Assembly: GCA_016278505.1 (NCBI GenBank)
Contig: JADQBQ010000002.1
Span: 1 to 64,000, forward strand
From: Clostridiales bacterium
GTDB lineage: Bacteria; Bacillota; Desulfotomaculia; Desulfotomaculales; VENG01
DNA: 64,000 bases
Direction of reading: 5' to 3'
Both the position numbers and the translations under genes were made by a program. Positions 10,269 through 20,685 of the stretch are shown piece by piece. Every line of letters begins with the position of its first letter. The first letter of the stretch is position 1. The notes beneath the pieces are model-generated. The model searched no databases. It was not told where the DNA came from and saw only the letters and a program-made list of their open reading frames with translations.

Positions 10269-10293
10269 TCTGAATTGTGATAAAATTTAATTT

Positions 10294-10326
10294 AAAAACC
10301 CCTTCTTGTATAATGAAGGGGTTTTT
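10294..10326. terminator. Rho-independent terminator between convergent genes
   Basis: A 12-bp stem (10294-10305 with 10315-10326, core CCCCTTC/GAAGGGG) with a nine-base loop is flanked by AAAAA and TTTTT, so it can act on both strands. It lies between the cupin gene and the convergent DUF1287 gene; the minus-strand stop codon overlaps its edge. Confidence 0.85.
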
Positions 10327-11008
10327 ATCTTTCTTGCATATTACCGAGCGGGTAACGGAAATGTCCGGTAATCTCCCAGCGGTTCAAGCAATCCTCTTCC
10401 ACTGCCATACCGGCATTATGGATAACCAGGGGCATGCCGCTAGCACCATTACGGTCGCTAATAATGCCGCAGTGCTCAAGTCCATTGGGAAACCTCCAAT
10501 AGACCACGTCTCCCCATTGCCATTCCTGTAAACCCTCTTTGCCCGTGGAAAGTGTAAGGGAATCACCGAATCTGCTAAAAAAATTAACCTGATTGGGTAC
10601 CCGTCGGTGGTCAATGTTGGGGTCGGGTCGTACCAATCCCCAATTTTGAGGATAACGATTAAAGTGCACCTTCATGTCTTTATGAATCAGTCGCTGCAAA
10701 TCTATACCCGCATGGCGAAAGGCTCTTATGACCACATCCGTACATGCCCCCCGGTTCTCCGGAACGTCGCCCCCAGGATAATCAATAACTTGATAAGATT
10801 CATCGTAAGTAACACCCTTCTTTACTTCCTGCCGTGCCCCAAGTAATACCAGGTCATACACGTCCCGTTCCTGTGATGGGATCTGCTCTACCGGTGAGGG
10901 TTTATCCAAGCTGGAAATAGAATTACCTTCTGTGCCCCCCCCACAGCCGACCAACAAAAAGGACACGGCAAATATAATTACTATCTCTCTAATTTTACTG
11001 CAGTGCAC
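10325..11008 (-). CDS. DUF1287-family lipoprotein
   Basis: The 227-aa product begins at GTG 11008 behind AAAGGAGCGG. It has a lipoprotein signal peptide (hydrophobic about residues 8-20, lipobox LVGC with Cys22). The body matches the DUF1287 family: YPGGDVPENRGACTDVVIRAFRHAGIDLQ, HRRVPNQVNFF, QWGDVVYW and a His near HCGIIS and VIHNAG. Its Cys/His arrangement resembles NlpC/P60-like amidases acting on cell wall, which is a family-level inference. A longer frame from 11128 overlaps the permease gene and lacks a start signal. It follows the ABC permease gene by 15 bases and is probably the last gene of the sigma-factor operon. Confidence 0.8.
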   Translation of the reverse strand: MHCSKIREIVIIFAVSFLLVGCGGGTEGNSISSLDKPSPVEQIPSQERDVYDLVLLGARQEVKKGVTYDESYQVIDYPGGDVPENRGACTDVVIRAFRHAGIDLQRLIHKDMKVHFNRYPQNWGLVRPDPNIDHRRVPNQVNFFSRFGDSLTLSTGKEGLQEWQWGDVVYWRFPNGLEHCGIISDRNGASGMPLVIHNAGMAVEEDCLNRWEITGHFRYPLGNMQER

Positions 11009-11022
11009 GTAACCGCTCCTTT

Positions 11023-11844
11023 TCACTTTTTGCCCAGAGGGTTCAACCGGCGTCCGCTCCACAACAGTAAAAGTGTACCTACACCTATATAAAATATTAG
11101 ATAAACACCCCAATACGGTATTACCCAATTTGCCTCTTGTCCCAGGAGCGGTCCTTCACCCATAATGCGTAGTAGTGCAAACACCGGGTTAATATCAAGC
11201 AAAAACTGCACAGGAAAAGTCATATCATTAATTCCGGCATATATATTTCGGGTAACTTCTCTGATAAATACAGCCAAAAAGGCAGTGCCTGCACCTAAAA
11301 GAGCAGTAATACCGTAAGACGTAATGGTACTTATTCCTGTTCGCTTAAAAAAAGCTGAACAGGCCATACCAATAGAGGCAAATAAATACATAGTTACTAA
11401 GTAAAAGCCAAACATACTTAATAATTGGGCCGGAGCAATACCACCAAACATGAGTACCATGCCATACAGGGGAAACGTCGCCACAACCAATAACAAGGTA
11501 AAGGCACAAGATGATACTAGCTTACTGATTACAATGCCCCGCGGGCTTAAATCGGTAATAAGCAGCACATCAAGGGTTTGGCGTTCCCTCTCTCCACTGA
11601 TCGTACCTGCGGTGAGCCCCGGGGTAACAAAGGCCAGTAGAATCAATTGAGCAACACTTAAGACCGCAAATATTTCCTGACTCCGGGAAGGATTAAATGT
11701 CATCGGCGCGTGACGCCAATTTAAATAGATAAAACCCAGGGTAAATCCACCCAGTACCAGAAGGTAAATAAACAGTATCAAAGGTGCTTTGCCCTTTCTG
11801 AAGGGCTGCCATAATTCTTTAAACAGTACTGGATTGATGGACAT
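11023..11844 (-). CDS. ABC-2 type transporter permease
   Basis: The 273-aa integral membrane protein has about six hydrophobic spans (near residues 22-42, 60-80, 102-130, 140-163, 172-193 and 245-265). The motif SGERERQTLDVLLITDLSP (about 82-100) is typical of ABC-2 permeases related to NatB and gliding-motility GldF proteins. It pairs with the ATPase encoded upstream, which it overlaps by 26 bases; its own GGGGAGG site lies inside that gene. Together with the 761-aa protein, it resembles GldFG-like or exopolymer/multicopper-type ABC systems whose substrate is not known. Confidence 0.87.
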   Translation of the reverse strand: MSINPVLFKELWQPFRKGKAPLILFIYLLVLGGFTLGFIYLNWRHAPMTFNPSRSQEIFAVLSVAQLILLAFVTPGLTAGTISGERERQTLDVLLITDLSPRGIVISKLVSSCAFTLLLVVATFPLYGMVLMFGGIAPAQLLSMFGFYLVTMYLFASIGMACSAFFKRTGISTITSYGITALLGAGTAFLAVFIREVTRNIYAGINDMTFPVQFLLDINPVFALLRIMGEGPLLGQEANWVIPYWGVYLIFYIGVGTLLLLWSGRRLNPLGKK

Positions 11845-12769
11845 TGCTTTCTACCTCCCCGGTCACTGCCATAAATATATCTTCCAGGTTGCCCTGTTCT
11901 TCTGAAAACTGAACTACATCATACCCTGCTGAGACCACTTCTCTAAGCAGATTAACCTGTGCGGTTTTGTTTCCACTAAAAATCAAACGTACCATATTGT
12001 CAATTTCCTCTGCCTGTATAACAGCGGGATAACCACCTAAGTACTCCACCAGTTTTGTCATGTATTCGGTTACCTCGATATTAATAACGCGGTTACCTTT
12101 CCCACCGGAAATTATTTCTGGTACGGGGCCGCTGGCCAGTAATTTACCATTTTGTAATATTCCAACCCGGTCACATATCTCGGATAATTCAGGCAAAATG
12201 TGCGAACTAATAAGTACTGTCTTACCCATCCGGCCTAGCTGTACTATGATCTCTTTCACCTCAGCCCTGGCCCTGGGGTCCAGGCCCGAGGCCGGTTCAT
12301 CCAGAATAAGAACCTGCGGATCGTGAACAAGACACCTGGCCAGAGCCAAGCGCTGTTTCATACCGCGTGATAAATTATCTACATATGCTTCCGCCTTGTC
12401 CGGCAGATTCACCAGTTCCAACAGCTCCTTAACCAGGACGTCATGTTTTTCTTCCGGTATATTATAAGACGACGCAAAAAAGCTCAGGTATTCACGTGAT
12501 GTTAATCCATCATAAACGCCGAAAAAATCGGGCATGTATCCGATAGAACGTCGTACTCCACGGGTATCGTGAACAATATCTTTTCCGTCAACAATGGCCG
12601 TACCACTGTCCGCCGCAGCTAAAGTAGCCAAAATCCGCATGGCCGTAGTTTTTCCGGCACCGTTAGGACCAATAAGGCCGTAAACCTGCCCGCCCGGGAT
12701 GGATAGAGTTAATTCATTTAAGGCGATGTTATTACCAAAGGACTTTGTTAATTCCTTCATTTCAATCAT
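11819..12769 (-). CDS. ABC transporter ATP-binding protein
   Basis: The 316-aa ATPase has Walker A GPNGAGKTT (about residues 34-42), signature LSRGMKQR (about 132-139), Walker B VLILDEPASGLDP (about 152-164) and H-loop SSHILPE. A C-terminal extension of about 80 residues beyond the nucleotide-binding domain ends in QGNLEDIFMAVTG, typical of DrrA/NatA-type exporter ATPases. It overlaps the upstream 761-aa gene by 8 bases and the downstream permease gene by 26 bases, so all three are translationally linked. Confidence 0.92.
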   Translation of the reverse strand: MIEMKELTKSFGNNIALNELTLSIPGGQVYGLIGPNGAGKTTAMRILATLAAADSGTAIVDGKDIVHDTRGVRRSIGYMPDFFGVYDGLTSREYLSFFASSYNIPEEKHDVLVKELLELVNLPDKAEAYVDNLSRGMKQRLALARCLVHDPQVLILDEPASGLDPRARAEVKEIIVQLGRMGKTVLISSHILPELSEICDRVGILQNGKLLASGPVPEIISGGKGNRVINIEVTEYMTKLVEYLGGYPAVIQAEEIDNMVRLIFSGNKTAQVNLLREVVSAGYDVVQFSEEQGNLEDIFMAVTGEVESNVHQSSTV

Positions 12770-15047
12770 TTATTGCCACTCCCTCCACTGCCACGGAAGG
12801 TACCGGAACTATGTCCTTAGCGCCTAATCCCCGGATAAAAATCCTGATACGGTATGCTTCGGAGATATAGGGTTTGAGTTCTTCCGCCTCCATTCGTGTC
12901 TTATTTAATGTCATTTTTTCCCATTTCTCTTTTGTCCAATTAAAGATTTCCAACCTGTAAGGTTCATCCCCACTCATGTATTGAAACTCAACTGACTTGA
13001 TTTCTGCATTCCGGTGCTGCCCAGGCAGTTGGAGGTTATATTCTAACTTTACATTTTGTCCGTGAATTAATTTTCCTTCCGGTGTGGGCTGTACAGAGCC
13101 GCTGTTTCCAATAACACGCGCCGGAATTAATCCCGCAGGAAGCGTAAATTTACCGCTATCCGTCAAATCCAGCGGCAGGCGCTGCATGATCATGGCTGAA
13201 CTGTAGTTTTGTGCTCCCTCATTTTCTATTTGTGCTAACCCAGGCACATTATTACCGTAACCAATTAGTTGAATTCCCTCATCAAAATAGTTTCCTTCCT
13301 TTTCTCTCCAAGTGGTAGGTCTTATTGTTGAAACCGCAACATGTTCAATGGCGGGAATGTCCTGTCCCGGAAAGAACCATTTGCCCGGCTTATTTTGCCA
13401 ATCAAAGAATTTAGCTTTGCTTAGGTTGTATTCCACTTGTACTTCTTTCCCCCTGGGTAACGCGCCAATATCAAACGCTTTCTCTCCGATAACAACCATG
13501 CATTTGGTTAAATTCATGCCGGTTTTATTTTGAAGGGATCCGGAAATACGGTCGCCGGATATTTTTAAACTTCCTTCTATTTCACCGAAGTTATTGTCGA
13601 TCTTATAAGTTGCAGCCTGGCGCATGGACCAAAATTCAACCTGTTCAAAGTGAACCGTTTGCTCCGATTCTATAAACTTAATAACCGGTAAATCCTCCAG
13701 GTCACCGCTGTTCGAATATCTGCGCTGCGGCGTTATGACCGCCTCGCCCGGTGCTGTCAAAGAGAGGGTGCCCCCACGGGGTAGCACGAAGGAACTTCCG
13801 GCTTGAACTTCGGCAACATTCTCATCCATTATTTCCACCATGGCTAAGGTTTGGCCCAGCGGACCACCCAGCCGGTGAAAGGGAGCAAAAAAATATAATA
13901 ATGATGCCGTTACCACTGCCAGTCCCGGTATGCAAAGCCAAGCCCATTCCCTTCGATTATATCTCTTCAAAATAAGGTAGAGCCCTGGCCCAATAATAAG
14001 CATATACAAGGACCAAATCCCTGCCAATATCAATACAGAAGGCATTTTCAACTGTGGAATGTTAGCGCTGGCCTGTACAAGCGAATTACTTTCAAATACC
14101 ATTTTTTCGTTAGTCCTATCAATACCGGCAAATATTACTTCCCATATTTTGCCATCAGCTGCAGCCAGGCTGTCCAGCCCAATGGCGCTGAAAATGACAT
14201 TACCGCGCCCTAGATTCCGATCGGCAACCAGCAATGTATTATTAGCCGCCAGCCTTTCTTCGCCTCTTGCAAATTTGCCTACAGCAATACGAACGGTGCC
14301 GGTGTCGTTTCGCAAACCGTTTATGCTTCCTGTAATATTCTTTTCTCCTGTTACCAATACCGGGCTTATGTCGGCAAACGGTTCTCCTGCCGATGCACCT
14401 GCCCCGCCGGAAAGCACTATGTCCCCTCCCAGCTTCACCCACTTCTTGACGGCATCCACTTGTGAAGCTGTAAGTTCACTGGTCTTATTCTTATCCAGGA
14501 TAATTATATCGGCAGTTTCCAGAGCCAGAGGATCGGCAGGTACTTCCCCGACAGGCATATATTTTACGGTAAGATCATTCATGTGTTCTCCGAGCCAGGC
14601 TTGCAGGCCATTTGATAACGGTGCCTCTCCCACACTTATACCTATCATTTCACTGTTTATTGCTATACCTTGTACCTTTTGACCCGCTATTTCTTTATTA
14701 TTGGAAAGTAATCTAACTCTGGGCTCGCTTCTGGCCATGGATCCAGGGATAACAATGGATGTTTCCAAAGCCTCCCCGGCCGCAACACTGACCGCGCGCT
14801 TATAAATAGCTTCATGCTGCGGACGGCGCACATAATCACCCTGTTTAGCTACATAAACCTCAAGCAAAGCGTTTTCCAATGCTTTTTCGCTATTAACAAT
14901 AGTTATATTTAATTTTACAGGACGATCTGTTTGGTATATGCCGTTAAGCCCCGGGTTGACTTTAATATCCGTACCGGCAAAGGCGTATTGCGGAAGAATT
15001 AACATAGCCAGTATAGTGCAAATAAATATTATCCGTTTCCAAGTCAT
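12762..15047 (-). CDS. Secreted-domain membrane protein of an ABC/ECF-sigma operon, function unknown
   Basis: The 761-aa protein starts at ATG 15047 behind GAGGAGAG and overlaps the previous gene by ATGA. It has a signal peptide (about residues 1-24, ending YAFAG), an immunoglobulin-like beta region, a region resembling the class I glutamine-amidotransferase fold (about 150-260: ADIIILDKNK..., KWVKLGGDIVLSGG), two membrane spans (about 335-360 and 368-390) and a large beta-rich C-terminal domain. The second span is followed by FAPFHRLGGPLG. I know no name for it. Such proteins occur next to ABC-2 exporters, so it may be an extracellular partner of the transporter encoded downstream. Confidence 0.75.
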   Translation of the reverse strand: MTWKRIIFICTILAMLILPQYAFAGTDIKVNPGLNGIYQTDRPVKLNITIVNSEKALENALLEVYVAKQGDYVRRPQHEAIYKRAVSVAAGEALETSIVIPGSMARSEPRVRLLSNNKEIAGQKVQGIAINSEMIGISVGEAPLSNGLQAWLGEHMNDLTVKYMPVGEVPADPLALETADIIILDKNKTSELTASQVDAVKKWVKLGGDIVLSGGAGASAGEPFADISPVLVTGEKNITGSINGLRNDTGTVRIAVGKFARGEERLAANNTLLVADRNLGRGNVIFSAIGLDSLAAADGKIWEVIFAGIDRTNEKMVFESNSLVQASANIPQLKMPSVLILAGIWSLYMLIIGPGLYLILKRYNRREWAWLCIPGLAVVTASLLYFFAPFHRLGGPLGQTLAMVEIMDENVAEVQAGSSFVLPRGGTLSLTAPGEAVITPQRRYSNSGDLEDLPVIKFIESEQTVHFEQVEFWSMRQAATYKIDNNFGEIEGSLKISGDRISGSLQNKTGMNLTKCMVVIGEKAFDIGALPRGKEVQVEYNLSKAKFFDWQNKPGKWFFPGQDIPAIEHVAVSTIRPTTWREKEGNYFDEGIQLIGYGNNVPGLAQIENEGAQNYSSAMIMQRLPLDLTDSGKFTLPAGLIPARVIGNSGSVQPTPEGKLIHGQNVKLEYNLQLPGQHRNAEIKSVEFQYMSGDEPYRLEIFNWTKEKWEKMTLNKTRMEAEELKPYISEAYRIRIFIRGLGAKDIVPVPSVAVEGVAIND

Positions 15048-16450
15048 AACTGCTTCTCTCCTCTGTCCCACAATCTCTCTTCCAAGTGTATTCTTAGTAC
15101 TGATGCCATACCGGTTTCCTGACTGCTGTAAAACAGTTTGTTTCCTTGGCAACCAAATACCGGGTTGGTATACCGGTCAGCTTCGCCCAGGGACAATACC
15201 CTGGGTTCACGAACCCCTTCCAGCTCAAGTTTTTTTAACCATTCTATTTCTTTACCTGTCATCGTTTGGTCCTTACTTACCAGCAAAGTACCGGGTGTTA
15301 TTAAATTTCCTTCAGACTTGTCATCCTGCAGTAATTCACCGCCATCAGGACCGGCATAAATTGACCGCACTTCACCTATCCGTTGCCGCACAGTAAATTG
15401 TGGAGACCCATCAGGCAGATAAGTTAAGACCCGCTCTTCTTGACTGGTAACAACAAAGGCCAAAAAACCCTTTTCACCCCACGCAGCCTGCTCACCTTGT
15501 CCCAACACCTTTGTTATCCCTGTTTTAACATCCACAAGGTAAAGAAAATTATTACCTCCGGATTGGTGACGCTGTACAATAATCTTTGAGCCGTCCGGTG
15601 ACCAGGCCGGATGCCTGCCTGATGATACAAAATCATTTATCCCGTTACTGTTGGTAATATATACCCGAGCTAAATTGCCTTCAGTCTCTGCATATGCCAG
15701 GCGAGCCCCCCCCGGAGACCAGGTAAGACCGCTATACTCGTGAGCATTCTTTCCTCTGCACAATATCTCAAACTGGAGTGCCTCTGCGGCAGAGTCCGGA
15801 TTTAATAATTCCTTGGCTTTAATGACCACAATTTGTGGTGCGTAGCCATTTTGCCTACGCACCAGTGCCACTTCTTTTCCATCCGGGGAAAAAGCGGGAG
15901 ATTTATAATCCCAATTTGGAGGCAAATCCAATACACGGTACGGACTGTTGGATTGGTTCGATAGCAACAACTTGCCATTTCTGGCTACTATCACAGCACC
16001 CTCAGGTGAAACGGTAAAGTCTGTTTCCCCACCTGCATGCCAAAAGCTCATTACCGGTACTGGATTTCCCACTGGTCTAAGGTAAGTTTCAGTAGCATTA
16101 AGCCACGATACAAGTATCGCTGCTGCTATAACTATACCAACTAGCAACAACCAAAAACGGGAGAAAAAATTTCTTATCGGCCTTGGCCCCAACAGTGAAA
16201 ATTCTGAAACAGAAAGATTGTCACCGTGGATTCTACTGCTAAGCAGTAACTGCTTAAGCTCAGTCTGCAATTTTTGATTTACCGGTACCGCCTGTCGTAT
16301 CCTGCGCATATGGTCTAATAATTGGTGCACTGATTCATTAACATCATTTTCGCCGGTGCCTTCAAGCAAACGACACCTGTCCTTATGCCTTTCCTCTTTA
16401 TGTCTTTCCATAGAAAATACTTTCCCTCTGTCTTTGTTAAAATCATTCAT
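15044..16450 (-). CDS. Membrane-anchored TolB-like beta-propeller protein, probable anti-sigma factor
   Basis: The 468-aa protein has a soluble N-terminal region of about 110 residues, one membrane span (about 121-140: RFWLLLVGIVIAAAILVSW) and an extracytoplasmic propeller with PD40/TolB repeats (FSPDGKEVALV, LTWSPGGARLAYA, PAWSPDGSKIIV). Its ATG at 16450 overlaps the sigma-factor stop (ATGA) with GGAG upstream; the longer frame to 16471 lies within the sigma gene. Position directly after an ECF sigma gene plus a cytoplasmic tail and outside sensor domain argues for an anti-sigma role. No clear zinc-binding ZAS motif is visible in the tail, so this is inference. Confidence 0.75.
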   Translation of the reverse strand: MNDFNKDRGKVFSMERHKEERHKDRCRLLEGTGENDVNESVHQLLDHMRRIRQAVPVNQKLQTELKQLLLSSRIHGDNLSVSEFSLLGPRPIRNFFSRFWLLLVGIVIAAAILVSWLNATETYLRPVGNPVPVMSFWHAGGETDFTVSPEGAVIVARNGKLLLSNQSNSPYRVLDLPPNWDYKSPAFSPDGKEVALVRRQNGYAPQIVVIKAKELLNPDSAAEALQFEILCRGKNAHEYSGLTWSPGGARLAYAETEGNLARVYITNSNGINDFVSSGRHPAWSPDGSKIIVQRHQSGGNNFLYLVDVKTGITKVLGQGEQAAWGEKGFLAFVVTSQEERVLTYLPDGSPQFTVRQRIGEVRSIYAGPDGGELLQDDKSEGNLITPGTLLVSKDQTMTGKEIEWLKKLELEGVREPRVLSLGEADRYTNPVFGCQGNKLFYSSQETGMASVLRIHLEERLWDRGEKQL

Positions 16451-16992
16451 TTTTTTATCTCCATTGGCCACTGATGTTTAAAGCGTTTTCGTAGCATTCT
16501 TAACCCCCGAAAATGAATCATTCTTACTGCTGCTCCGGTTTTACCCAGCACCTCGGCAATCTGAGCAAACCTCAACTCCCCGGCATACCGCAGCGACATT
16601 ACATCTCTGTAGTCCGGGGGTAGCGAACTTAGCAAAGAACGGAGTTCAAATACCTCTTCATTCAACAGCATTTGCTCTTCGGGTGTTTTTTGAGGCGCCG
16701 CATATTTATGTAAATACATTTCCGTTGCTGAAGGTTCCGGCAAACCACGCATATAGTCAACAAAAGCGTTATGTGCAATTCTAAACAGCCAGGAGGCAAC
16801 GGAACTTTGCCCTCGAAAGGTATGATACTTTTCCAGAGCCTTCATAAAAACTATCGCTGTCAAGTCGTCTGCGTCCCATGTGTTCTTGACTCGGTAGCGC
16901 AAATAACGGTTTACCCGGGAAAAATGTGTATCGTACAACTCTTCGAAGGATGATGCAGAATCCTTATGTTTGCACTGGGGCGTTTCAGTCAT
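16447..16992 (-). CDS. ECF-type RNA polymerase sigma factor
   Basis: The 181-aa product has sigma region 2 (about residues 17-85, with DADDLTAIVFMKALEKYHTFRG and SWLFRIAHNAFVDYMR) and region 4 (about 118-172, LPPDYRDVMSLRYAGELRFAQIAEVLGKTGAAV) and lacks regions 1 and 3, as in ECF sigma factors. I start it at ATG 16992 behind TGGAGG; the frame also opens from a TTG at 17007. It heads the operon with the propeller protein, the 761-aa membrane protein and the ABC transporter, and probably directs transcription of this operon in response to an envelope signal. Confidence 0.9.
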   Translation of the reverse strand: MTETPQCKHKDSASSFEELYDTHFSRVNRYLRYRVKNTWDADDLTAIVFMKALEKYHTFRGQSSVASWLFRIAHNAFVDYMRGLPEPSATEMYLHKYAAPQKTPEEQMLLNEEVFELRSLLSSLPPDYRDVMSLRYAGELRFAQIAEVLGKTGAAVRMIHFRGLRMLRKRFKHQWPMEIKK

Positions 16993-17104
16993 TTTTAACC
17001 TCCACAATGTCTTTATATTATAGACGAGGTAAAATAGATTTTTGTTACCGCTATTTTCGATTTTTTGCCGGCAAATAAACAGCAGTCAACAAAACAAGCA
17101 AAAA

Positions 17105-17130
17105 AGAACACCACCTTTCGGTGGTGTTCT
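17105..17130 (-). terminator. Rho-independent terminator after the Cys-rich small ORF
   Basis: An 11-bp perfect stem (AGAACACCACC 17105-17115 with GGTGGTGTTCT 17120-17130) with a four-base GAAA loop on the minus strand is followed there by CTTTTTTGC. It overlaps the stop codon of the 36-aa ORF by two bases, and serves transcripts coming from that ORF or from yraN. Confidence 0.85.
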
Positions 17131-18617: not shown

Positions 18618-19826
18618 TTATTCTCTAACGGTCAAGCGCTTTATAGCTTTCTGTAATCCTTCTAGTGTCAGTTCAAACATTGGAACAATGTCCGAGATAA
18701 TATCTATTGTATGTGCTCCCTCAGTTGCGGGCCAAATTTTTTTCGGTATTGGATTAAGCCAAACAACATGCCTAAAATGGTTAACAATGTGCCGCAACCA
18801 CGTTATTCCCGGCTCATTATTCAGGTAGTTCCACTCCAGCGCCCCGTATTTCATCATTAGCTCACTGGTTGCCATACTGGCATCTCCTACCAAAATAACT
18901 TTATAATCATGAGCATAAGTGTTTAATACTTCCAGTGTTCTTTGAGAAGCTTGAACGCGACAAAAGGGCTCGTGGAAGAGATGTTCATATATACAGTTAT
19001 GAAAAAAATAAACTTTAAACTTTTTAAAGTGGCCCGCTTTATTTGCAGCTTGGAATAGCTGACTGCACAACCGTGCATAGCGATTCATTGATCCACCGGA
19101 GTCCATCAATAGCATTAATTTAACATTATTTTTCCTGGGCCGGTTCCAAACTAATTTTAAATTGCCTGCGTTATTGCCTGTGGCCTCAATCGTACTCTCC
19201 AGGTCCAGCACTTCTTTAGGTCCTTCCTCGTGGCGGGATAGACGGCGCAAACTACGCAGAGCGGTTTGGAAATGGCGCGTGTTTAATACTTCGTCCTTCC
19301 TAAAGTCATGAAAACTTCGTTCAGCTGCTACTTGAGCAGCAGAGCGGTTTATTGACTGCCCACCAATTCGCACTCCGGCAGGGTTATAACCGGAATGCCC
19401 GTAGGGAGAAGTGCCACCGGTTCCAATCCAGTAGGAACCTCCATGGTGTTCAGAATCTTGCTGCTCCATCCTACCTTCCAAATTGCGACGAAGTTCCTCA
19501 AAGTCCCAATCCTCAAAACATGCGCGTTCTGCAGACGTAATATTTAAAGGTGGTATTGATTTTTCCACCCATTTCAATACTTCACTTACCATTTCTTCTG
19601 ACGTTTCTATCCCGCCGAAAAATTTTAAAAAAGCACGGTCAAAAGAATCGTAATAGGCCTCGCTCTTGACAAGAATTGCCCTAGCCAACCGGTAAAATTG
19701 CGTCAAACTGGAGAAGCCCAGACCTTTATCCAGGGCTGACATAAAAGTTATCCATTCAGTTAATGAAACCGGAACCCCCATCCCGCGAATTAAATAAAAA
19801 AAGCCTGTAAACAATCTATACCCCAC
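18618..19826 (-). CDS. von Willebrand factor A domain protein, CoxE-like
   Basis: The 402-aa protein matches the CoxE/YehP-like VWA group that partners with MoxR ATPases. The N-terminal half is helical and charged; the C-terminal half carries a VWA domain with MIDAS-like LLMDSGGSM (about residues 233-241) and a later VILVGDASMATSELM. MoxR-VWA pairs act as metal-insertion or assembly chaperones, for example on carbon monoxide dehydrogenase in CoxDE systems. No molybdenum hydroxylase or other client lies in this window, so the target is unknown. Its start overlaps the MoxR gene by 11 bases. Confidence 0.85.
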   Translation of the reverse strand: MGYRLFTGFFYLIRGMGVPVSLTEWITFMSALDKGLGFSSLTQFYRLARAILVKSEAYYDSFDRAFLKFFGGIETSEEMVSEVLKWVEKSIPPLNITSAERACFEDWDFEELRRNLEGRMEQQDSEHHGGSYWIGTGGTSPYGHSGYNPAGVRIGGQSINRSAAQVAAERSFHDFRKDEVLNTRHFQTALRSLRRLSRHEEGPKEVLDLESTIEATGNNAGNLKLVWNRPRKNNVKLMLLMDSGGSMNRYARLCSQLFQAANKAGHFKKFKVYFFHNCIYEHLFHEPFCRVQASQRTLEVLNTYAHDYKVILVGDASMATSELMMKYGALEWNYLNNEPGITWLRHIVNHFRHVVWLNPIPKKIWPATEGAHTIDIISDIVPMFELTLEGLQKAIKRLTVRE

Positions 19827-20685
19827 CCTGACGGTTAAAATGTCCTACACCCACACTATTAATATACTTTTTAACCTGGGCCATATCCTTGTCCTTTTTA
19901 ATTAACGAGCCTGCAAAAGGTAGCTCTTCAGTAATTTTTGCGGGGTCTACCCCGCCCAAAACTAATGCTTGCAGCCAGTCTAACAGCTCACTGGTACTTG
20001 GCCTTTTTTGTAAACCTGGGACTGATCTTAACCAATAAAAAGCTTGTACAGCTTCTGTTAGCAAGTTCCTCATCAAATTAGGATAATGTACTTTGATAAT
20101 TTGTTTCATTTCCTCAGGTCCCGGAAAAGCGATGTAGTGAAAAATACAACGGCGCAGAAAGGCGTCCGGAAGTTCCTTCTCGGCATTACTAGTTATAATT
20201 ACTATGGGGCGTTTCTTCGCCGTTACAGTTTCGCCGGTTTCTGGAACATGAAAACTCATCATATCCAATTCCCATAAAAGATCATTAGGAAACTCCAGGT
20301 CAGCTTTATCAATTTCGTCAATCAGTAGAACCACTTGTTCTTTTGAAGAAAATGCCTGCCCCAGTTTGCCAAGCTTTATGTAGTTTTTTATTTCTGACAC
20401 ATCACGGTCACCGAATTGACTATCATACAAACGCTGCACCGTATCATACACGTATAGGCCGTCTCGAGCCTTTGTGGTGGATTTAATATTCCACATTAAA
20501 ATATCTAAACCCAGTCCCTCTGCAATACTTTTGGCAAGCATAGTTTTACCTGTACCCGGTTCTCCCTTAATGAGAAGTGGTCTACTCAGTGCAAGAGCAA
20601 CATTAACAGCTTGTTGTAAATCGCCCGGGGCTACGTAGTCGGCAGTCCCGGAAAATCTATTGAATGGTTGATACAAGCTAATCAC
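19816..20685 (-). CDS. MoxR-family AAA+ ATPase
   Basis: The 289-aa ATPase has Walker A GEPGTGKT (residues 41-48), Walker B VVLLIDEIDKAD (about 117-128), sensor 1 IVITSNAEKELPDAFLRRC and a C-terminal lid. It is the MoxR/CoxD-like partner of the VWA protein encoded immediately downstream with an 11-base overlap. The pair probably remodels or loads a metalloenzyme. The gene is first in its operon; the 213 bases upstream separate it from the divergent enoyl-CoA hydratase gene. Confidence 0.9.
   Translation of the reverse strand: MISLYQPFNRFSGTADYVAPGDLQQAVNVALALSRPLLIKGEPGTGKTMLAKSIAEGLGLDILMWNIKSTTKARDGLYVYDTVQRLYDSQFGDRDVSEIKNYIKLGKLGQAFSSKEQVVLLIDEIDKADLEFPNDLLWELDMMSFHVPETGETVTAKKRPIVIITSNAEKELPDAFLRRCIFHYIAFPGPEEMKQIIKVHYPNLMRNLLTEAVQAFYWLRSVPGLQKRPSTSELLDWLQALVLGGVDPAKITEELPFAGSLIKKDKDMAQVKKYINSVGVGHFNRQGGV

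Follow-up and report, generated by a model that had tools for sequence, protein, structure and literature searches.

ABC-2 type exporters controlled by a sigma factor are already known in outline. The sigY operon of Bacillus subtilis combines an extracytoplasmic function (ECF) sigma factor, small regulators and an ABC-2 type transporter, is autoregulated, and presumably includes yxlF and yxlG. An operon of comparable outline lies on the minus strand, at 16992-10325, of the 64,000-nucleotide stretch analyzed here (contig JADQBQ010000002.1, positions 1 to 64,000, of the Clostridiales bacterium assembly GCA_016278505.1; the window is this stretch at its full length). According to the listing of open reading frames (ORFs), genes for an ECF sigma factor, a propeller protein (PROP), a membrane protein of 761 amino acids (aa), an ATPase and a permease follow one another there in that order. 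Both operons would thus join an ECF sigma factor, a regulator and an ABC-2 transporter under autoregulation, whereas the sigY operon is not known to include a propeller or a GIFT-domain protein. YxlFG is an exporter whose function is listed as unknown in the available part of PMC11466899. In the available part of PMC8999054, the ECF257 group has ABC transporters and AAA ATPases in its neighbourhood and no cognate anti-sigma factor listed, and ECF57 sigma factors bear WD40-like repeats as C-terminal extensions. RsbN, the partner of BldN, is presented as a class III anti-sigma factor that binds with three helices (available parts of PMC7406223 and PMC8103513). A sigma-propeller-ABC arrangement was not found described in the literature searched, a scope outside which most subscription papers fell. 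The reading favoured here, at a probability of about 0.58, is that the ECF sigma operon regulates itself and serves one membrane complex, with PROP as its membrane anti-sigma factor.

The five genes are tightly joined and inherited together. An earlier note, made from the sequence of the window alone, had claimed serial overlaps of 4-26 bases, and these are present: the sigma and PROP genes share ATGA (4 nt), as do the PROP and 761-aa genes, the 761-aa and ATPase genes share ATGATTGA (8 nt), and the ATPase and permease genes overlap by 26 nt. Of 60 same-order genomes sampled, the own one among them, 32 contain a relative of the 761-aa family, and the neighbourhoods of the 31 other 761-positive genomes were compared. 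A close-type 761 match occurs in 23 of these 31, and in 21 of the 23 all five full-size ORFs are in order; the exceptions are L052, where ORFs are broken, and L061, which is without an intact sigma gene. Among the 21, L045 has two ORFs inserted between the ATPase and permease genes; this insert (L045:3997-6061, minus strand) resembles a mobile-element pair, IS607-like by eye, in an otherwise intact operon. The remaining eight same-order loci contain a distant, mostly longer type of the 761-aa protein with the ATPase and without the propeller, the permease being present except in L064, at a contig end. Among the best 80 matches in named genomes, to which the 57 loci L093-L149 belong, all five genes occur in eight Bacillales loci with sigma (the 761 ORF of L149 is split). 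The sigma type is found within this list in Desulfotomaculum-, Desulforamulus-, Desulfofundulus-, Moorella- and Pelotomaculum-like bacteria, and also in Brevibacillus, Ammoniphilus and one Anoxybacillus. The five-gene order is therefore beyond chance.

A search with a profile of the PROP tail built from 35 sequences adds to this picture. The tail is present in 24 of the 60 same-order genomes, namely the own genome and the same 23, and all 24 contain the 761 family; in a wider draw of 299 genomes from the phylum it is present in 15, with one match each, and the 761 family in 50, including all 15. The tight coupling that the earlier note took for a sign of one machine thus holds as co-inheritance, with gene order kept in 21 of 23 same-order loci and as far away as Brevibacillus, and with the tail never seen without the 761 family. 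Separate occurrence of the members in most relatives, which that note would have taken as evidence to the contrary, is not found for the propeller (24 of 24 and 15 of 15 tail-bearing genomes contain the 761 family) and is found in part for the trio of 761-aa protein, ATPase and permease, which lacks the propeller in 8 of the 32 761-positive same-order genomes and, among the 57 loci L093-L149, in 48.

The sigma factor (186-aa ORF) matches Sigma70_r2 with 53.6 bits (cut-off 24), Sigma70_r4_2 with 42.8 bits (cut-off 25.7) and the NCBIfam model sigma70-ECF with 85.9 bits (cut-off 42.9), which places it in the ECF class. Its closest NCBIfam family is BldN (117.9 bits, under the cut-off of 206.45), and its best PDB match is 6dxo_A, named an ECF sigma factor (4.4e-25), with SigW almost level (7.4e-24). 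The 6dxo_A entry is taken to be the BldN-RsbN complex. The factor may belong to the ECF257 group, a comparison made by neighbourhood description only, because the ATPase encoded here also matches an AAA model (AAA_21, 59.7 bits); ABC transporter and AAA ATPase neighbours are common to both, but ECF257 is described without an anti-sigma factor.

A predicted ECF-type promoter, for which the earlier note had proposed to look, lies upstream of the operon. The search was anchored on the 3' end of the sigma gene, which avoids start-site errors, used dinucleotide shuffles as controls, and covered 40 chosen loci: the window, 22 of the 23 same-order loci (L061, without an intact sigma gene, was left out), nine named Desulfotomaculales-like loci and eight Bacillales loci. 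The motif GTWAC-N16/17-CGTC lies upstream of the sigma gene in 29 of the 40 loci, against 0.07 expected. The loci without it are three same-order ones, each with one base changed, and all eight Bacillales loci, whose upstream regions contain GTGAC in seven cases and CGTA in three. GTDAC-N16/17-CGTM is found in 38 of 40 loci (0.34 expected) and the loosest form in all 40 (1.41 expected), both being post hoc counts from a pattern relaxed after the Bacillales regions had been viewed, each with its own shuffle control. Another ten sigma-type records, for the most part named versions of genomes already covered, have the strict motif in seven cases, including L086, taken as a genome new to the set; L092 has GTGAC, and L070 and L074 have no motif. 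In the own genome the strict motif followed by T occurs 14 times, against 35 for the reversed control; 13 copies lie inside ORFs and the operon copy alone lies outside. A broad own-genome regulon is accordingly not supported at the strict motif. Because the promoter precedes sigma so regularly, and because every other own-genome match is inside an ORF, autoregulation of a single operon would be the simplest reading.

In relatives the motif may reach further. GTTACA-N15/16-CGTCT has 38 matches in the 24 sigma-positive genomes, ten of them operon promoters, and 21 matches in the 36 sigma-negative genomes. The surroundings of 24 of the other 28 matches were inspected (all 13 in the Desulforamulus-like family f12, and 11 elsewhere); the remaining four are three own-genome matches inside ORFs and one inside the ATPase ORF of L057. 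In f12, 10 of the 13 non-operon matches lie outside ORFs of at least 100 aa and nine precede a gene. Of the 11 matches in other sigma-positive genomes, 2 are outside ORFs and none precedes a gene; in the sigma-negative genomes 1 of the 20 inspected (of 21) is outside. Several f12 genes found 32-188 nt 3' of the motif encode secreted or envelope proteins (Amidase_3 with SH3 domains, SLH proteins, SIMPL), and others TerD and a PD40 protein (L210, L211, L213, L214, L218, L219, L221); the set may be a wider envelope regulon. Two f12 genomes (L215, L220) also encode a second ECF sigma factor, different in type, whose gene has the same motif about 225 nt upstream. The two f12 sigma factors may share promoters or form a cascade, and either may read the f12 promoters.

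PROP is predicted, from its sequence and model, to be a single-pass membrane anti-sigma factor. The model (mean pLDDT 81.6) contains a weak helix at residues 21-32, helices of middling confidence at 44-61 and 66-82, a transmembrane (TM) helix at 102-124 and a well-predicted propeller at 129-467. Positive charges precede the TM helix (by eye), and the predicted topology is single-pass with the tail inside and the propeller outside. The nearest solved structures in Foldseek are TolB (best E 1.8e-11, TM-score about 0.4), and PD40 is detected in 25 of 25 PROP relatives. The likeness to TolB of the Tol-Pal system is one of fold only, the TIGR02800 equivalog scoring 45.4 bits against a cut-off of 343.15. 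The zinc-binding anti-sigma (ZAS) motif Hx3Cx2C is not seen in the N-terminal parts of the aligned PROP sequences, as the earlier note had remarked, and its picture of an outside propeller on a non-ZAS cytoplasmic tail agrees with the predicted topology and the fold match.

Conservation singles out the PROP tail. Six residues (L51, R59, P63, V64, L68 and L72) are invariant in 35 PROP sequences. In a comparison of 24 Desulfotomaculales-like with eight Bacillales loci, identity between the lineages is 49.9% in the PROP core (residues 49-76) and 45.0% in sigma, against 18.8% in the PROP TM helix and 19.1% in the propeller. Conservation like that of sigma, on the sigma side of the membrane, fits an anti-sigma element. 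The likeness to BldN/RsbN is one of architecture only: the sigma factor is nearest to BldN, under the cut-off, and a membrane anti-sigma factor would have a short helical cytoplasmic domain in both cases. RsbN binds with three helices, and the PROP model has two middling helices and one weak helix in its tail. PROP differs in having no PDB profile match of its tail, a TolB-like propeller outside and a link to an ABC complex, and its sigma factor is nearly as close to SigW. Matches of the tail to augmin and ETV6 were dropped as weak.

The output of the operon is an ABC-2 type transporter by class, as had been claimed. The ATPase matches ABC_tran with 104 bits (cut-off 25) and the permease ABC2_membrane_3 with 37.4 bits (cut-off 31.6). 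The ATPase is DrrA/GldA-like, below the cut-offs of those models, and neither gene product belongs to the Gld equivalogs (GldA, 232.5 bits against 402.6; GldF, 24.6 against 288.5 for the permease).

The 761-aa protein is modeled (mean pLDDT 85.4) with a signal peptide, an Ig-like domain at 26-139, an alpha/beta domain at 148-330, a TM hairpin at 338-386 and a C-terminal beta part at 397-758, the names of the beta domains being our own assignment from the model. The GATase-like domain of the earlier note is recovered in structure: the alpha/beta domain is GATase1-like and matches 2gk3 (Z 15.5, 178 residues, 3.0 A), 3rht (Z 14.1), the N-domain of IFT52 (Z 13.9) and ThuA-like proteins (Z up to 12.8); a fold missing from the second structure-match list was not counted as excluded. 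Since this domain has no cysteine in the window protein, and at most 8 of 39 relatives have cysteine in any one column, a cysteine amidotransferase is unlikely. GIFT is the name of the GldG/IFT52-type domain, which GldG carries, and the alpha/beta domain is probably of this type, judging from the model. The likeness to GldG consists in a GIFT-type domain in an accessory protein and is one of fold only, as the GldG-related family ABC_transp_aux (PF09822) matches 3 of the 39 relatives at E<=0.1 and not the window protein. At the same threshold DUF7408 matches 30 relatives and DUF4350 matches 15; the window protein itself has no Pfam match above cut-off (DUF7408, 18.7 bits against 27). Several weak leads were dropped: ketothiolase and the H subunit of the reaction centre (both at E 0.09 or worse), the Foldseek list for the full-length protein (TM-scores about 0.1-0.2) and a mannanase match of the 761 profile (E 0.0017, in line with the GATase-like domain). 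Identity between the lineages is 42.5% in the TM hairpin and 41.1% in the permease, against 18.9-19.9% in the outside parts, a pattern that would fit a hairpin packed on the transporter.

Computation yields the operon, its conservation, the promoter motif and the predicted topology and folds, and a scheme can be proposed on this basis. PROP would hold sigma with its cytoplasmic helical tail and expose its TolB-like propeller outside. The ABC-2 transporter would have as its partner subunit the 761-aa protein, with Ig-like, GIFT-type and C-terminal beta parts outside and a two-helix hairpin in the membrane, much as GldG partners GldA and GldF. The propeller would read the state of the outside complex (its assembly, load or ligand) and not a free small molecule; a signal that disturbs it would make the tail let go of sigma, and the freed sigma would bind GTWAC-N16/17-CGTC, giving more sigma, anti-sigma and transporter. 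Newly made anti-sigma would close this positive loop again, and the operon would be the main target of its own sigma factor. The complex would be an exporter by fold class and perhaps, by its GIFT and MoxR links, an envelope-assembly machine, so that its output could be export or mechanical work on the envelope.

Between a free ligand and the outer face of the 761 complex as what the propeller reads, the analysis leans to the complex, because the tail is never found without the 761 family and because the evolutionary distances of the propeller and the 761 outside domains correlate after controls (partial correlation 0.36-0.38, 0 of 500 permutations as high). The corresponding value is 0.12 for the propeller and the 761 TM part (81 of 500 permutations as high) and 0.43 for the PROP core and sigma. 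Several observations weigh against the scheme. The correlations are modest and not specific to contacts (propeller-sigma 0.44, propeller-permease 0.34, PROP core-permease 0.28), and that between the 761 TM hairpin and the permease is 0.08 with ATPase and sigma removed, 136 of 500 permutations being as high, although these two parts are proposed to touch. The profile of the tail matches no anti-sigma factor in the PDB, and the block-mean pLDDT of the tail helices is only 44-79. The link to BldN is weak, given the nearly equal SigW score, the strict promoter is missing from 11 of the 40 loci, and the motif alone does not name its reader, since the second ECF sigma gene of f12 bears it as well.

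Trios without sigma keep other company. The 96 loci compared comprise 42 of sigma type (including L061, with the propeller only) and 54 counted as sigma-less, relatives being called by phmmer at E<=1e-8. Within the fetched stretches of the 54, MoxR occurs in 46, DUF58 in 46, a BatA-like protein in 44 and a long VWA protein in 43; Pfam confirms AAA_3, DUF58, BatA and VWA in one of these loci. A protein of about 530-580 aa is encoded 3' of the sigma-less permease gene (L115:9880-11478, L099:9874-11616, L062:2477-4225), with relatives in 50 of the 54 loci and no Pfam match in L115, the one scanned. The MoxR-DUF58-BatA/VWA clusters share the trio with the sigma type, but none of the 42 sigma-type loci contains a relative of MoxR, DUF58, BatA, VWA or the ~580-aa protein; a MoxR-vWA-propeller ternary system is thus not seen in them. 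The own genome has a single partial DUF58 match. Eight sigma-less loci are without MoxR. Four of them (L067, L077, L089, L130) are either short or truncated at a contig end, L130 still having the 580-aa protein, and L094 is a genuine exception within its 18.8 kb. In the other three, of genus g10 (L063:116-1776, L068:889-2375, L069:13428-14914), the 580-aa protein is adjoined, on the opposite strand, by a different ECF-like sigma factor and a 334-aa protein, a pair that is possibly a third way of control.

Three of the genomes, of Brevibacillus thermoruber (L099, L120), B. borstelensis (L102, L146) and Anoxybacillus sediminis (L137, L149), each contain both types. In a tree of ATPase and permease from the 96 loci, made by a quick search, the sigma type stands in two places, a Desulfotomaculales-like clade and a Bacillales clade, with four state changes against a shuffled mean of about 31.6; well-supported branches force at least three of the changes. 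L077 and L089 appear as sigma-less rows inside the sigma clade, both being cut by contig ends. One origin of the sigma type with loss and two origins both fit this tree.

Three other explanations deserve weighing. The propeller could sense a free envelope ligand (peptide, glycan or antibiotic) that the ABC-2 complex, as output, removes, propeller and 761-aa protein not touching each other. The propeller does diverge like the 761 outside parts (19.1% against 18.9-19.9% identity), as expected if both follow one changing ligand, and YxlFG, presumably of the sigY operon of B. subtilis, is a precedent for sigma-controlled exporters. The tail is however never without the 761 family (24 of 24 and 15 of 15 genomes), and the correlation between propeller and 761 distances survives the controls, although a shared ligand would explain that too; this explanation is regarded as a minority possibility. 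A stronger contender, but still somewhat short of even odds, is that the complex is not an exporter but a machine for membrane stress or surface assembly, for which sigma/propeller and MoxR-DUF58-BatA, the latter acting on protein, are alternative controls. MoxR, DUF58 and BatA in 46, 46 and 44 of the 54 sigma-less loci, against none of the 42 of sigma type, and the three genomes with both types all point in this direction, as does the altered abundance of secreted and gliding proteins after loss of GldG in Flavobacterium (available part of PMC5682007); but co-location alone is no proof that MoxR acts on the trio, MoxR is missing in 8 of the 54 loci, and the window 761-aa protein matches no GldG model. 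It is improbable that PROP is instead a further transporter subunit, with sigma controlled elsewhere or constitutive. Such a role would suit a tail without a sequence match to any solved anti-sigma factor, and ECF257, beside ABC transporters and AAA ATPases, is described without a cognate anti-sigma factor in the available part of PMC8999054; yet the PROP gene directly follows sigma with a 4-nt overlap, the predicted topology is single-pass with the tail inside, and the tail core is conserved like sigma and unlike the rest of PROP.

If the self-regulating operon with PROP as anti-sigma factor is the true reading, a large family of Bacillota ABC-2 complexes gains a regulator, a promoter and a testable input, a route opens into the function of GIFT-domain ABC partners and MoxR-DUF58-BatA clusters, and a zinc-free anti-sigma type tied to a propeller is added to those known. 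A bolder and rather doubtful extension is that PROP founds a further kind of membrane anti-sigma factor, with an element of about 30 residues that holds sigma (LLxHMRxVRxAVPVNxxLxxELRxKL), one TM helix and a propeller that reads the state of a GIFT-domain ABC complex, and that a single envelope machine has exchanged one control module for another, unrelated one, sigma acting on transcription and MoxR-DUF58-BatA presumably on protein.

The features of the operon and its borders are listed in Table 1. Pfam matches above cut-offs are those of sigma regions 2 and 4, PD40, ABC_tran, ABC2_membrane and DUF1287. The earlier note had placed a DUF1287 lipoprotein after the five genes; its gene lies beside the permease gene in none of the 23 same-order loci; it was therefore rejected as a conserved operon member and is a local addition. 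Its start is most likely GTG 11008, preceded by AAAGGAG, rather than TTG 11128. In this genome it is probably co-transcribed with the operon, because it would begin 14 nt after the permease stop (with GTG 11008 as its start) and its own stop is followed by a hairpin and T run, likely the operon terminator. For the hairpin upstream of the operon, the terminator scan gives eight sites of this kind against 10.1 expected by shuffling, which is weak by itself.

Table 1. Coordinates of the sigma operon and adjoining features in the window
Feature	Positions	Strand	Basis
ECF sigma factor (SIG), 181 aa from ATG	16447..16992	-	ORF; Sigma70_r2 and r4_2 above cut-off
PROP (predicted anti-sigma factor), 468 aa from ATG; helical tail in the cytoplasm, single TM, TolB-like propeller outside	15044..16450	-	
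PROP tail, conserved core of 28 aa (residues 49-76, numbered in the 475-aa ORF)	16244..16327	-	
761-aa membrane protein: signal peptide, Ig-like, GATase1-like/GIFT, two-TM hairpin, C-terminal beta part	12762..15047	-	
ABC ATPase, 316 aa; by eye, Walker A, Walker B and signature motifs all intact	11819..12769	-	
ABC-2 type permease, 273 aa	11023..11844	-	
DUF1287 lipoprotein, same direction, 14 nt 3' of the permease stop	10325..11008	-	
Predicted ECF promoter of the sigma operon, GTAAC-N17-CGTCT	17022..17048	-	
Intrinsic-terminator-like hairpin, 11-bp stem and T run, separating the operon from the YraN/UPF0102 gene upstream of it	17105..17130	-	
Hairpin and T run 3' of the DUF1287 stop	10293..10324	-	By eye; absent from the terminator scan list

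A DUF1287 relative lies about 5 kb upstream of the propeller gene, near but outside the operon, in Pelotomaculum propionicicum (L061, which shares its contig with L074). Positions 18618-20685 of the window (minus strand), 1.6 kb upstream of the operon and two genes away, encode an AAA ATPase together with a CoxE-like VWA protein; the pair has neither a PF20030 match nor, in the other neighbourhoods compared, a relative at E<=1e-8. A first scan of named genomes using the 761-aa protein gave no match, and one plasmid record, labelled Klebsiella, showed 23.7% identity along half the query. The trios of the records 'Pseudomonas sp. ISL-84' (L127) and 'Armatimonadetes bacterium' (L082) resemble Cytobacillus and Desulfotomaculum-like ones, respectively, and it seems likely that these two records are mislabelled or mis-binned.

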